From: Georhizobium profundi
GTDB taxonomy: Bacteria; Pseudomonadota; Alphaproteobacteria; Rhizobiales; Rhizobiaceae
Direction of reading: 5' to 3'
Assembly (NCBI RefSeq): GCF_003952725.1
Contig: NZ_CP032509.1
Span: forward strand, 2,814,001-2,878,000
Length of the DNA stretch: 64,000 bases
In this document: positions 16,139 through 19,296 of the stretch, piece after piece
Position numbering within the stretch: position 1 is the stretch's first letter
Layout: each line of letters opens with the position of its first letter
Position numbers and translations under genes: made by a program
The notes under the pieces: generated by a model
Seen by the model: the letters and a program-made list of their open reading frames with translations, nothing else
What the model was told of the DNA's origin: nothing
Databases searched by the model: none

Positions 16139-16223
<85 letters not shown>

Positions 16224-16366
16224 TCTGCTCGCCAGATCAACACTCAAGGCATAGCGGGCCAGCCTTGAACGCGCGTCTCTATATCACCCGTTCTGGAGGG
16301 TTCAAAGGAAAAATGGGGTATTTGGCGCCGCCATTCCGCTCTTTTAGCATCGACGCAAGATCGAAT

Positions 16367-16391
16367 GGAACCTTCGCCCAACGAGCGCGTT
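16367..16391 (+). promoter_or_regulatory. candidate EcfG promoter upstream of sRNA 1
   Basis: GGAAC (16367-16371), 16 bases, CGTT (16388-16391). This is an exact fit to the alphaproteobacterial general-stress consensus, on the strand that reads into the sRNA hairpins about 240 bp further on. Activity is inferred from sequence only. Confidence 0.45.
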
Positions 16392-16531
16392 CATGCACCG
16401 TGTTCGCCTCGGCGAGCGAGCGGCCCGCTCTTGAAACGCTGGGATCGCCTCCTCACATTGCGGACGCAAGGCCGGCCAAAAGCTGACGTGTGATAGAGTT
16501 GCGTAAGGTGCATGGCTTCCATGCAGATATT

Positions 16532-16563
16532 GCACTGCACAAATCGGATCGGCCGCCTTATGT
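16532..16563 (+). promoter_or_regulatory. presumed promoter of sRNA 1
   Basis: CTGCAC (16535-16540), 17 bases, TTATGT (16558-16563), embedded in GCACTGCACAAAT (16532-16544). The same 13 bases, followed by CTATCT at nearly the same distance, occur at 16933-16964 before the first DUF1127 gene. The start site would be near 16570. The core TGC-N3-GCA is an inverted repeat. Confidence 0.45.
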
Positions 16564-16627
16564 TGAAGTCATCGAACGGCGCAATTGAGCGCCTCGGTCG
16601 AGGGTCGCCCGTAAGGCGGCAAAGAAT

Positions 16628-16751
16628 TCGGAGCGGCAAACTCCTCCTCCCATTGCCTCTCCGATATGATGGATGGTTCTCCTCCTCCCAACCATTCATC
16701 GCCACAAATGACGCCCGCTGGATCCTCCTCCCCCAGCGGGCGTTATTTTTT
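16628..16751 (+). ncRNA. sRNA with three CCTCCTCCC-loop hairpins (alpha-r14/NfeR1, 'cuckoo' type), copy 1
   Basis: Three consecutive hairpins each expose an anti-Shine-Dalgarno motif. Hairpin 1 is 16628-16664 (CGGAG-c-GGCAA with TTGCC-t-CTCCG; loop with CTCCTCCTCCC). Hairpin 2 is 16668-16700 (GATGGATGGTT with AACCATTCATC; loop CTCCTCCTCCC). Hairpin 3 is 16711-16743 (ACGCCCGCTGG with CCAGCGGGCGT; loop ATCCTCCTCCC), followed by T-A-T6, so it is also the terminator. This architecture is that of the alpha-r14 family (NfeR1 of Sinorhizobium) and of the cuckoo/CcsR RNAs of Rhodobacter, trans-acting stress sRNAs. The 5' end is inferred near 16570, giving about 180 nt. Confidence 0.88.
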
Positions 16752-16932
16752 CCGACTCTCTCATATAAATCATCTGATGTGCTTCGCCTCGCTTTCGCCA
16801 GTTGGCGGCGGCGGGCAATGTCGTGCGTCATCCGGTGCTCCATCGGCCTGGGCGCGGATGCACGTGCAAATGAATCAAATCTTAACGATCTGATCCGGTC
16901 TGCAGCCAGCGCATAGCCATGATGCTTATTTC

Positions 16933-16964
16933 GCACTGCACAAATTGGCCTATCGCACCTATCT
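16933..16964 (+). promoter_or_regulatory. presumed promoter of the DUF1127-sRNA 2 transcript
   Basis: GCACTGCACAAAT (16933-16945) is identical to the element before sRNA 1. CTGCAC (16936-16941), 17 bases, CTATCT (16959-16964) resembles the rhizobial housekeeping pattern CTTGAC-N17-CTATAT. The start would be near 16971, about 53 bases before the DUF1127 start. Confidence 0.5.
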
Positions 16965-17023
16965 TCAGTCCAACGAGATCGGGCCGCTCAAGAGCATGCC
17001 TGGGAAATACGAAGGACATGAAG

Positions 17024-17164
17024 ATGAACGTAGCACGCACTTTCAACAACTGGCGCAAGTACCGTCAGACCCGCAACGAACTGGCCCGTATGTCGGATCG
17101 CGAACTCAGCGACATCGGTGTAAACCGCGCTGACATCGCGCGCATCGCTCGCCAGGCGATCTAA
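17024..17164 (+). CDS. DUF1127 small Arg-rich protein, copy 1
   Basis: A 46-residue protein starting MNVARTFNNWRKYRQT, with the DUF1127 core ELARMSDRELSDIGVNRADI. GAAGGA (17011-17016) favours the ATG at 17024 over the one at 17018. DUF1127 proteins are small and basic, and common in Alphaproteobacteria. Some bind RNA and affect sRNA turnover and phosphate or carbon metabolism (known for the family, not seen here). The sRNA hairpins begin 10 bp after the stop, so they are probably processed from the same mRNA, as in the Rhodobacter ccsR locus. Confidence 0.9.
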   Translation: MNVARTFNNWRKYRQTRNELARMSDRELSDIGVNRADIARIARQAI

Positions 17165-17173
17165 TCAAGAAAT

Positions 17174-17295
17174 TCGGCCGGACACACTCCTCCTCCCAGT
17201 GTCAGGCCGAGCGATCGGCGGCCCTCCTCCTCCCAGCTGCCGATCAAACAAAGTGCGCCCGCCGGATCTCCTCCCCCGGCGGGCGCTCTTGTTTT
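17174..17295 (+). ncRNA. sRNA with three anti-Shine-Dalgarno hairpins (alpha-r14/cuckoo type), copy 2
   Basis: The three-hairpin layout repeats copy 1. Hairpin 1 is 17174-17210 (CGGCC-g-GACAC with GTGTC-a-GGCCG; loop with CTCCTCCTCCC). Hairpin 2 is 17213-17245 (GATCGGCGGC with GCTGCCGATC, one G-T pair; loop CCTCCTCCTCCCA). Hairpin 3 is 17255-17286 (GCGCCCGCCGG with CCGGCGGGCGC; loop ATCTCCTCCC), followed by TCTTGTTTT as terminator. Stem sequences differ from copy 1 but compensate, while the loops are conserved, which argues for selection on loop and structure. It lies directly behind DUF1127 copy 1. Confidence 0.88.
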
Positions 17296-17343
17296 GAGCG
17301 ACGTGATCCAAATTGCGGTCCCGGACCGAACAGAGCGAGCATC

Positions 17344-17487
17344 ATGAGCCTTACGGAGTCCTTTCGACGCTGGCGCCAATACCGCATCGCCTGCACCGAT
17401 CTGCAGCAGATGACGAGCCGTGAGCTCGAAGATCTCGGCCTCACCCGCCGCGATATTCCGATCGTGGCGCGGACCGCCGTCAAGTAG
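17344..17487 (+). CDS. DUF1127 small protein, copy 2
   Basis: A 47-residue ORF reading MSLTESFRRWRQYRIAC and then DLQQMTSRELEDLGLTRRDI, a good DUF1127 match (Trp near residue 10, SRELEDLGLTR). The Shine-Dalgarno is weak (GAGCGAG about 5 bases upstream). It starts 49 bp after the sRNA 2 terminator; I see no strong promoter, so it may depend on read-through. Confidence 0.85.
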   Translation: MSLTESFRRWRQYRIACTDLQQMTSRELEDLGLTRRDIPIVARTAVK

Positions 17488-17492
17488 CGCTC

Positions 17493-17540
17493 AAGCGGCT
17501 GGCAAATGCCTCAAAAATCGGCATTCGAATGCAGCCGCTT
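17493..17540 (+). repeat. long stem-loop after DUF1127 copy 2
   Basis: AAGCGGCTG (17493-17501) pairs with CAGCCGCTT (17532-17540), and inside it AATGCC (17505-17510) pairs with GGCATT (17520-17525). There is no T-run, so it may be an mRNA-stabilising or processing element rather than a terminator. An alternative fold uses the palindrome GCATTCGAATGC (17521-17532). Confidence 0.55.
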
Positions 17541-17674
17541 CGGATCGATCTCAGCGGTGTTCGGCCCGCATGGCTGGCCTTGGACATTGGCGCTACTAGA
17601 GATCGCCGATCGGCAGTAGAAGCAGCACCAAGAGACGGCCCATTCGCCGCCACATCCCAGTCAGGTTCAGTTCC

Positions 17675-17815
17675 ATGCTTACGCTCAACAATGCCCGGTC
17701 GTGGCTCAGCCGCCGCCGCACCATGAACACGCTTCGCGGCCTTTCCAACGAGACGCTCGAAGACATCGGTCTGACGCGTTTCGACGTTGCTCGCAGCGCA
17801 CGCCAGGCGCGCTAA
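17675..17815 (+). CDS. DUF1127 small protein, copy 3 (diverged)
   Basis: A 46-residue ORF: MLTLNNARSWLSRRRTMN, then LRGLSNETLEDIGLTRFDVA. It keeps the Trp, the basic stretch and the LxDIGLTRxDxA core of DUF1127 but has diverged more than the other two. It lies 45 bp before trmFO and may be its co-transcribed neighbour. The ribosome site (CAGGTT) is weak. Confidence 0.75.
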   Translation: MLTLNNARSWLSRRRTMNTLRGLSNETLEDIGLTRFDVARSARQAR

Positions 17816-17859
17816 AACGCCCCGTTGGCCTTGCCGCGCCGGAATGATATGACGCGCGC

Positions 17860-19296
17860 ATGACAGATACAGCAGGTCACACACAGCCCGTTCACGTGAT
17901 CGGCGGGGGACTCGCCGGCTCGGAAGCCGCCTGGCAAATAGCGCAGGCAGGCATTCCCGTCGTCCTCCACGAGATGCGGCCGATCCGCGGAACCGATGCC
18001 CACCTCACCGACGGTCTCGCCGAGCTCGTCTGCTCGAACTCGTTTCGATCGGACGATGCGGAGACGAACGCCGTCGGCGTCCTGCATGCCGAAATGCGGC
18101 TTGCCGGTTCGCTCATCATGGCATGCGGCGACCGCAATCAGGTGCCCGCGGGCGGCGCGCTCGCCGTCGACCGCGTCGGCTTTTCCGACGCCGTCACGAA
18201 GGCACTCAAAGAACATCCCCTCGTCACCATCGAGCGCGAGGAAGTGACCGGCCTGCCGCCCGCCGAGTGGGGACGGACGATCATCGCCACGGGCCCGCTG
18301 ACGGCGCCCTCGCTTGCCGAATCGATCGGAGCCGTGACAGGCGCGGATGCGCTCGCCTTCTTCGATGCGATCGCGCCCATCGTCCACGCCGATTCGATCG
18401 ACATGGACATCTGCTGGTATCAGTCACGCTACGACAAGGTCGGCCCCGGCGGCACGGGCAAGGACTATATCAACTGCCCGATGACGGAAGCGGAATACAA
18501 CGCCTTCGTCGACGCATTGCTTGCCGGCGACAAGACGAGCTTCAAGGATTGGGAAGGCACGCCCTATTTCGATGGCTGCCTGCCGATCGAAGTGATGGCC
18601 GAGCGCGGCCGCGAAACGCTTCGCCATGGGCCGATGAAGCCGATGGGCCTGACCAACGCGCACAAGCCGACCGAAAAGGCTTATGCTGTCGTCCAGCTGC
18701 GCCAGGACAATGCTCTCGGTACGCTCTTCAACATGGTCGGCTTCCAGACAAAGCTGAAATATGGCGCACAGACCGAGATCTTCCGGATGATACCCGGGCT
18801 GCAGAATGCCGAATTCGCCCGTCTCGGTGGCCTGCATCGCAACACCTATCTCAACTCGCCGGTGTTGCTCGACGCGACGCTGCGCCTGAAGGCGCGTTCG
18901 GACATCCGCTTCGCCGGACAGATCACGGGCTGCGAAGGCTATGTCGAATCGGCCGCAATCGGTCTCCTGGCCGGCCGCTTCGCTGCAGCGGAGGCCAAGG
19001 GCCTTGCGCCCGCCGTGCCGCCTGCGACGTCCGCGTTCGGCTCGCTGCTGGGTCACATTACGGGTGGCCATATCGTTTCCGACGATGAGCCGGGCAAGCG
19101 GTCGTTCCAGCCGATGAACGTCAATTTCGGTCTGTTCCCGCCACTCGACCCGGGAGCGATCGTGCGGCCGGAGGGCGTGAAGCGCTTTCGCGGCAAGGAC
19201 AAGACGATCGCCAAAAAGCGCGCCATGGCGCATCGCGCGCTCGCCGATTGTGCCGCCTGGCTTGGCGACAGCGATTTTCGTCAAGCCGCCGAGTAG
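17860..19296 (+). CDS. trmFO: methylenetetrahydrofolate--tRNA-(uracil-5-)-methyltransferase
   Basis: A folate- and FAD-dependent enzyme that makes m5U54 in the T-loop of tRNA. The 478-residue product has the FAD-binding motif [13 protein letters not shown] near the N-terminus, [12 protein letters not shown], the conserved [25 protein letters not shown] segment (here starting [11 protein letters not shown]), [14 protein letters not shown], and HITGGHI and [13 protein letters not shown] towards the C-terminus. Family members occur in Alphaproteobacteria and Firmicutes instead of S-adenosylmethionine-dependent TrmA. It is convergent with the DUF4153 gene. Confidence 0.97.

Follow-up and report, generated by a model that had tools for sequence, protein, structure and literature searches.

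Does a small protein that is encoded directly in front of a small RNA (sRNA) help to process that RNA, or do the two only share a regulatory switch? This question is raised by a locus of Georhizobium profundi, located in a window of 64,000 nucleotides (contig NZ_CP032509.1, positions 2,814,001 to 2,878,000), in which the gene for a tiny arginine-rich protein, DUF1127a, is followed by an RNA of the ar14/cuckoo family (Table 1). Loci that combine a DUF1127 gene with a cuckoo RNA are called "CIN1" in a 2023 paper that cites a 2015 paper on cuckoo RNAs (PMC10253847), and the linked locus is a new copy of this already described protein-plus-RNA arrangement. It is a clean place at which to ask the question, because the same genome has a linked and an unlinked ar14 copy under similar promoters. 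We assign a probability of roughly 0.7 to the reading of region 16911-17291 as a single LysR-activated unit, of the cuckoo/CIN1 type, in which the ar14 RNA would form the 3' untranslated region (UTR) of the DUF1127a mRNA.

Table 1 Features of the locus, in window coordinates.
Feature	Position	Strand	Basis
LysR-type palindromic box TGCATGGCTTCCATGCA, upstream of solo ar14	16509-16525	+	GCATRGC-N4-ATGC match, four aligned genomes
Second box TTGCACTGCACAA; CTGCAC 16535-16540 placed as -35 by eye	16530-16542	+	19 nt from first box
-10-like TTATGT, solo ar14	16558-16563	+	41 nt from box centre; putative start ~16570
Solo ar14/cuckoo sRNA, without DUF1127	16623-16748	+	RF02344, 113.8 bits; RNWUU site 16624-16628
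LysR-type box GCATAGCCATGATGC, upstream of DUF1127a	16911-16925	+	GCATRGC-N4-ATGC match, four aligned genomes
Second box TCGCACTGCACAA; CTGCAC 16936-16941 placed as -35 by eye	16931-16943	+	Genome match, footprint, spacing
-10-like CTATCT, DUF1127a-ar14 unit	16959-16964	+	41 nt from box centre; putative start ~16971
DUF1127a ORF, 46 aa	17024-17164	+	PF06568, 67.6 bits; Shine-Dalgarno AAGGA 17012-17016
DUF1127-linked ar14/cuckoo sRNA	17169-17291	+	RF02344, 112 bits; fold; covariation
RNase E-like site AAAUU, 5' foot of hairpin 1	17170-17174	+	RNWUU in 49/57 units close behind DUF1127
Hairpins 1, 2 and 3 of linked ar14	17173-17211, 17213-17245, 17251-17290	+	Predicted fold
DUF1127b, 47 aa, without cuckoo RNA	17344-17487	+	PF06568, 43.7 bits
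DUF1127c, 46 aa, without cuckoo RNA	17675-17815	+	PF06568, 38 bits

An ar14 RNA directly behind DUF1127a

The linked RNA matched the full Rfam model ar14 (RF02344, positions 1-123) with 112 bits, compared with a gathering score of 58.8. Its predicted fold of three hairpins has a free energy of -65.5 kcal/mol (z = -8.1), and none of 200 shuffled sequences was equally stable. The loops read CUCCUCCUCCC in hairpin 1 and CUCCUCCUCCC again in hairpin 2, with a shorter CUCCUCCC in hairpin 3. Cuckoo RNAs have two to four hairpins, each with a CCUCCUCCC-type loop and variable stems, and the linked RNA shows this composition, with the shorter loop in its last hairpin. The three hairpins, the loop type, the variable stems, and a hairpin 3 that is likely the terminator are all shared with the ar14/cuckoo family; we saw no difference in the linked RNA itself, which is an ordinary member. 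The U-tract past hairpin 3, judged by eye, is weaker in the linked copy (TCTTGTTTT) than in the solo copy (TTATTTTTT), and a terminator scan of the + strand listed hairpin 3 of neither ar14 copy. On its + strand, the window has 14 copies of the heptamer CTCCTCC, 10 of which lie inside the two ar14 elements; the - strand has three.

A preliminary description had placed three anti-Shine-Dalgarno hairpins 10 nt behind a DUF1127 gene. The ar14 match and the fold agree with this layout, except that the spacer between the DUF1127a stop codon (end 17164) and the first stem base (17173) measures 8 nt, with the model match beginning at 17169. The genome contains two ar14 matches, 17169-17291 and 16623-16748. 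The RNA at 16623-16748 has no DUF1127 gene directly upstream, so that one of the two sRNAs here is DUF1127-fused. DUF1127 itself matches at four places of the genome, of which three belong to the window cluster, with a cuckoo RNA behind the first only and none behind the other three.

The likeness to the Rhodobacter DUF1127-ccsR locus noted earlier was borne out, in that the order is that of CIN1 and of ccaF1-ccsR. A short DUF1127 ORF, an sRNA directly behind it on the same strand (at 8 nt), an RNase E-like site at the junction, and one likely transcript are features in common with CIN1 loci. The type example, ccaF1-ccsR1-4 of Rhodobacter sphaeroides, carries four CcsR RNAs, however, whereas a single three-hairpin ar14 is found here, and an RpoHI/RpoHII promoter is described for ccaF1-ccsR (PMC10253847), whereas the promoter predicted for the window locus is of a LysR-box, sigma70-like kind.

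Association of ar14 with DUF1127 genes

The source genome and 59 relatives (60 genomes) were searched for both elements. An ar14 match was present in 44 genomes, over the cut-off in 36, and a DUF1127 match in 55. The 95 over-cut-off ar14 copies comprise 36 with a DUF1127 gene ending within 200 nt upstream, 8 behind another ar14, and 51 solo copies. Among the 36 linked copies, the DUF1127 gene ends at a distance of 27-119 nt in 29 and of 164-197 nt in 7, some of the latter being second arrays behind the same gene. At least one linked ar14 occurs in 26 of the 36 genomes with an over-cut-off copy. In the fetched loci, which were chosen by similarity to the trigger factor or ar14, include many Mesorhizobium and Brucella-group records, and come from relatives that are not independent of one another, DUF1127 ends no more than 130 nt from loop 1 in 85 of 168 distinct units (17-32 nt in 64 and 44-112 nt in 21). 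A DUF1127-ar14 locus of this sort is common in Rhizobiales. Several findings speak against a strict link between protein and RNA: the remaining 10 of the 36 genomes, in which no over-cut-off ar14 is linked, the three of four DUF1127 copies of G. profundi itself without a cuckoo RNA, and a pair of ar14 copies in Sinorhizobium saheli described below.

These counts bear on the possibility that the association reflects co-regulation only, with a shared promoter and with DUF1127a playing no role in RNA maturation but acting on proteins such as sensor kinases. We give this explanation a little less than an even chance. The 51 solo copies among 95 indicate that ar14 needs no DUF1127 in cis, and DUF1127 proteins of Agrobacterium are described as working through protein-protein contacts, on PhoR, in a source that also gives Salmonella YjiS as a protein for which no RNA binding was found (PMC12501420). 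CcaF1 of Rhodobacter, on the other hand, is described as an RNA-binding protein that alters CcsR levels in trans (PMC10253847), so that solo copies are compatible with a role of the protein, and many of the loci that were fetched show the close DUF1127-ar14 linkage again.

Proposed promoters of the two ar14 units

Two footprints common to four aligned genomes were found, one 5' of the solo ar14 and one 5' of DUF1127a. Each consists of the palindrome GCATRGC-N4-ATGC, a second box (TTGCACTGCACAA or TCGCACTGCACAA) with a possible -35 element CTGCAC, an interval of 17 nt, and a -10-like element; before DUF1127a this reads, by eye, CTGCAC-N17-CTATCT. The palindrome is slightly changed in Pararhizobium haloflavum (L036), the most distant of the four genomes. 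A genome-wide search for the 13-mer GCACTGCACAAAT gave exact matches at these two places only, plus two sites with one mismatch, compared with one match for a control pattern.

To these we added the upstream regions of related units, for which 168 units yielded 129 distinct regions (81 DUF1127-linked and 48 solo) once duplicates, two false clusters, array copies preceded by another array, and units close to the end of a locus had been removed. Given that the shuffles preserve single-base content only and that the species are related, the following figures measure conservation rather than independent events. The palindrome, with at most one mismatch allowed, was present in 75 of the 81 linked and 34 of the 48 solo regions (shuffles, 1.6 and 0.8). 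The VtlR box in its strict published form was present in 61 linked and 19 solo regions (shuffles, 1.8 and 0.8), and the second box TTGCAYTGCACAA, for which one mismatch was again allowed, in 43 linked and 15 solo regions (shuffles, 0.1 each). The distance from palindrome to -10 element was 41 nt in 64 and 40 nt in 9 of 108 promoter regions, the window's own two included, compared with no more than two at any distance in a single shuffle. In the 50 regions with both boxes, their centres lay -17 nt apart in 31, +19 in 15, -16 in one, and at other distances in three. Among the loci compared, L030, L044, and others included, the TTGCAYTGCACAA box follows the palindrome at 19 nt in other Rhizobiaceae-like units as in the window, and precedes it at 17 nt in Mesorhizobium-like units, while the distance from palindrome to -10 element clusters at 41 nt overall.

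The palindrome has 20 matches on both strands of the genome, compared with 4 for a reversed-pattern control. Thirteen of 19 palindrome loci lie inside stop-free frames of more than 300 aa and are likely due to chance; the matches in front of AbcR, the two ar14 units, and a pdhA gene appear to be intergenic. The last of these (L132 1501-1515; G000:C1:2756911) lies just 5' of the gene for the E1 alpha subunit of pyruvate dehydrogenase (TIGR03182). The palindrome before AbcR belongs to a group in which a LysR-type gene is situated between an ORF that by eye is trxB-like and AbcR/ar15, an order also described for VtlR (PMC12595884). According to published accounts, activation by VtlR extends to AbcR2 and three DUF1127 genes of Brucella and, in Agrobacterium, to AbcR1 and a gene for a small protein (PMC12595884, PMC7486931), and NfeR1 is activated by LsrB through such a box (PMC10746234). 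The genome has the GCAT...ATGC palindrome and a LysR-type gene beside a trxB-like ORF and AbcR in common with the LsrB/VtlR regulon (AbcR, DUF1127 genes, VrsA). The strict VtlR box GCAT-N3-TG-N3-T, by contrast, has no exact match in the window, being by eye one base off at the solo copy and two bases off at DUF1127a, where the palindromic form is exact in both cases.

A sigma70 scan with the strict consensus found no site in 16200-17900, the proposed promoters of both units included, and the case for these promoters therefore rests on footprinting and spacing. An exact palindrome search from 16926 to 17291 yielded no further site. The conserved box and -10 element precede DUF1127a. With no promoter found directly 5' of the linked sRNA, DUF1127a and the sRNA probably share one transcript.

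NfeR1 (Smr14C2) of Sinorhizobium meliloti shares with the linked RNA the ar14 family, an LsrB-type box, and a sigma70-like promoter. It differs in being a stand-alone transcript of 123 nt (PMC10746234), whereas the linked ar14 comes after an ORF, with some 200 nt between it and the proposed promoter; rather than abutting hairpin 1 as in NfeR1, the -10-like element (16959) is separated from the hairpin (17173) by the ORF.

Upstream of the solo ar14, CTTGAAA followed by CCTCACATT (16431-16460) resembles by eye a heat-shock sigma promoter; CTTGAA and CTCACATT are also present in L010 and L011 and absent from L036.

An RNase E-like motif at the base of the first hairpin

The motif RNWUU, the RNase E consensus of Salmonella (PMC5222698), occurs at 17170 in the linked and at 16624 in the solo ar14. 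With the caveat that this consensus is a Salmonella one, we examined a region of 16 nt (24 to 9 nt before loop 1) in 166 units. The last bases of RNWUU overlap the stem foot, so that stem pairing may add to its conservation. Of the 57 distinct regions that closely follow DUF1127, 49 had the motif (shuffles: mean 10.2, most 18), as had 20 of 21 units behind another array (4.7, most 11) and all nine leader-bearing solo units (1.1, most 4), or eight of eight without the doubtful L146. Solo units with a promoter abutting the hairpin had it at chance level (7 of 29; shuffles, 7.8), and it was present in one of 10 units of unclear promoter (shuffles, 1.7). Long-gap units, in which at least 35 nt separate DUF1127 from loop 1 (21 of the 85 linked units), had it in 9 of 19 distinct regions (shuffles, 4.7), which does not exceed the shuffle maximum of 11. 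A first classing over a wider region (52 of 57 linked, 29 of 30 tandem, 10 of 10 leader, and 7 of 22 abutting units) was replaced because that region touched -10 elements and some rows had been misplaced, for example L139 among the leaders and the second ar14 copies of L009 and L039 among the tandems; the contrast held under the stricter classes.

The motif thus appears strong where only cutting could give a 5' end near the hairpin, and no more frequent than by chance where initiation could give one; the long-gap units fit this contrast less well. The contrast between unit classes suggests that the linked sRNA is probably excised from the DUF1127a mRNA.

A start of its own, inside or just behind the DUF1127 ORF, would instead make 17169-17291 a stand-alone NfeR1-like sRNA. 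The second ar14 of S. saheli, with no DUF1127 in front, has a promoter that abuts its hairpin, the box (two mismatches) lying 71 nt before loop 1, and offers a precedent; the sigma70 scan is moreover insensitive in this region. The empty palindrome search, the conserved box/-10 pair in front of DUF1127a, and a processing-like site as in other linked units nevertheless render an own start unlikely.

Conserved loops and covarying stems

The two ar14 copies of the window are alike in 33 of 36 loop columns and in 43 of 68 stem columns, the latter divided into 12 of 20 for hairpin 1, 10 of 20 for hairpin 2, and 21 of 28 for hairpin 3. An alignment of 37 ar14 units, hand-picked across genera from 100 three-hairpin units, gave a mean pairwise identity of 0.875 for loops and 0.558 for stems (0.413, 0.467, and 0.727 for hairpins 1 to 3). 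In the RNAalifold structure, 31 of 34 pairs had changed on both sides with pairing kept. The remark in the preliminary description that the stems differ and the loops are nearly the same is correct. Paired cells amounted to 90.9%; column shuffles gave 71.5%, and slid partners no more than 49.9%, the latter being a control that favours the structure since the structure derives from the same alignment; double changes in pairs numbered 293, compared with 95.9 after shuffling. Loops with CCUCCUCCC and more variable stems were in print by 2011 (PMC3927594), and conserved loops with variable stems are also described in later papers on ar14 and NfeR1 (PMC10746234, PMC7143759).

That the hairpins mainly form a stabilizing 3' UTR and terminator of the DUF1127 mRNA rather than a trans-acting RNA would suit their position directly behind the ORF and the likely terminator, but is very improbable given the stronger conservation of the loops, the existence of the same kind of RNA as solo copies with a promoter box of their own (in 34 of 48 regions), and the silencing of mRNAs in trans described for NfeR1 (PMC7143759).

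Proposed mechanism

For the preferred reading of one transcript with a processed 3' RNA, we suggest the following sequence of events. An activator of the LsrB/VtlR type would bind the palindrome 41 nt upstream of the -10 element, with transcription starting near 16971. The mRNA would yield the 46-aa protein and would end at hairpin 3. By analogy with CcsR, RNase E may then cut within GAAAUU (17169-17174) to release a three-hairpin sRNA with a 5'-monophosphate, whose CCUCC-type loops, as for NfeR1, would pair with Shine-Dalgarno sequences of targets and lower their translation. RNase E and CcaF1 are both described as taking part in ccaF1-CcsR processing (PMC10253847, PMC8625941), and DUF1127a may likewise aid cutting or general RNA turnover; that it helps its own sRNA to mature is suggested by the Rhodobacter case. 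The solo ar14 would be a separate unit with a similar promoter, in which some 50 nt of leader precede the RNA and a processing site of like kind is predicted.

The complement of the loop core in a translation start context, GGGAGGA-N7-ATG, has 11 sites in the genome (L179-L189), compared with 2 in the control. Two of these precede ORFs of only 59 and 107 aa; the others include sites before genes for 5-aminolevulinate synthase, the FDH3 beta subunit of formate dehydrogenase, and a periplasmic binding protein. Given that a Shine-Dalgarno match alone predicts targets poorly, we claim no target.

What is added here is the shared promoter layout with its 41-nt spacing, the finding of no sRNA-proximal promoter, and the RNWUU contrast. 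Our literature search covered an open-access library of papers, and we claim no priority for the spacing or the contrast. More tentatively, and at somewhat less than even odds, the cuckoo RNAs of Rhizobiales may constitute one regulon of the LsrB/VtlR type with a rigid two-box promoter, in which the RNase E-like mark is kept if the RNA arises from a leader, an array, or a DUF1127 mRNA and lost if it has gained a start of its own. NfeR1 of Rhizobiaceae would then have escaped its protein gene, and the window, in which a linked copy neighbours a solo copy with a leader, would represent an intermediate state. Both the fixed spacing of the promoter and the processing mark serve as predictions open to direct checks in model rhizobia.

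Gene order in relatives

The trigger factor beside the locus shares 99% identity with that of Rhizobium albus NBRC 110149 and, in the best segment, 89% with that of P. haloflavum. The order ar14, DUF1127, ar14, followed by one or two more DUF1127 genes, is found at the trigger factor in the window, in R. albus (L037, which is also locus L011), and in P. haloflavum, and a genome of the same genus (G002, L010) has the element order of the window. In S. saheli (L039), the order by the trigger factor is ar14, ar14, DUF1127, DUF1127, so that neither ar14 is preceded by DUF1127; in Hoeflea halophila (L044), about 2.4 kb from the trigger factor, it is DUF1127, ar14, DUF1127, DUF1127. The comparison suggests, without proving it, that stand-alone copies of the NfeR1 type may have arisen through loss of the ORF.

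The solo ar14 leader (16600-16622) holds, just 5' of hairpin 1, the stretch GGTCGCCCGTAAGGCG, which resembles DUF1127 genes at their 3' end (V-A-R-K-A). A relic of such a gene was considered and dropped because two tests, both with p values per leader uncorrected for the many leaders, disagree. The position-specific test, for which only low p values and named loci were printed, gave no signal in the window (p of about 0.58) or its two nearest relatives (0.59 and 0.54), and p = 0.003 for P. haloflavum; the remaining printed leaders ranged over 0.08-0.96, and three tandem arrays of L175, where chance is the likely cause, over 0.003-0.007. When aligned locally with 64 DUF1127 3' ends, the leaders of the window and of its two nearest relatives, together one lineage, had p = 0.010-0.015, and eight other leaders 0.31-1.0, P. 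haloflavum among them at 0.585.

The fourth DUF1127 match of the genome (L004, G000:C1:3031655-3031753), with no ar14 nearby, is located inside a longer frame (179 aa from a TTG) and adjoins an ORF that by eye looks LysR-type.
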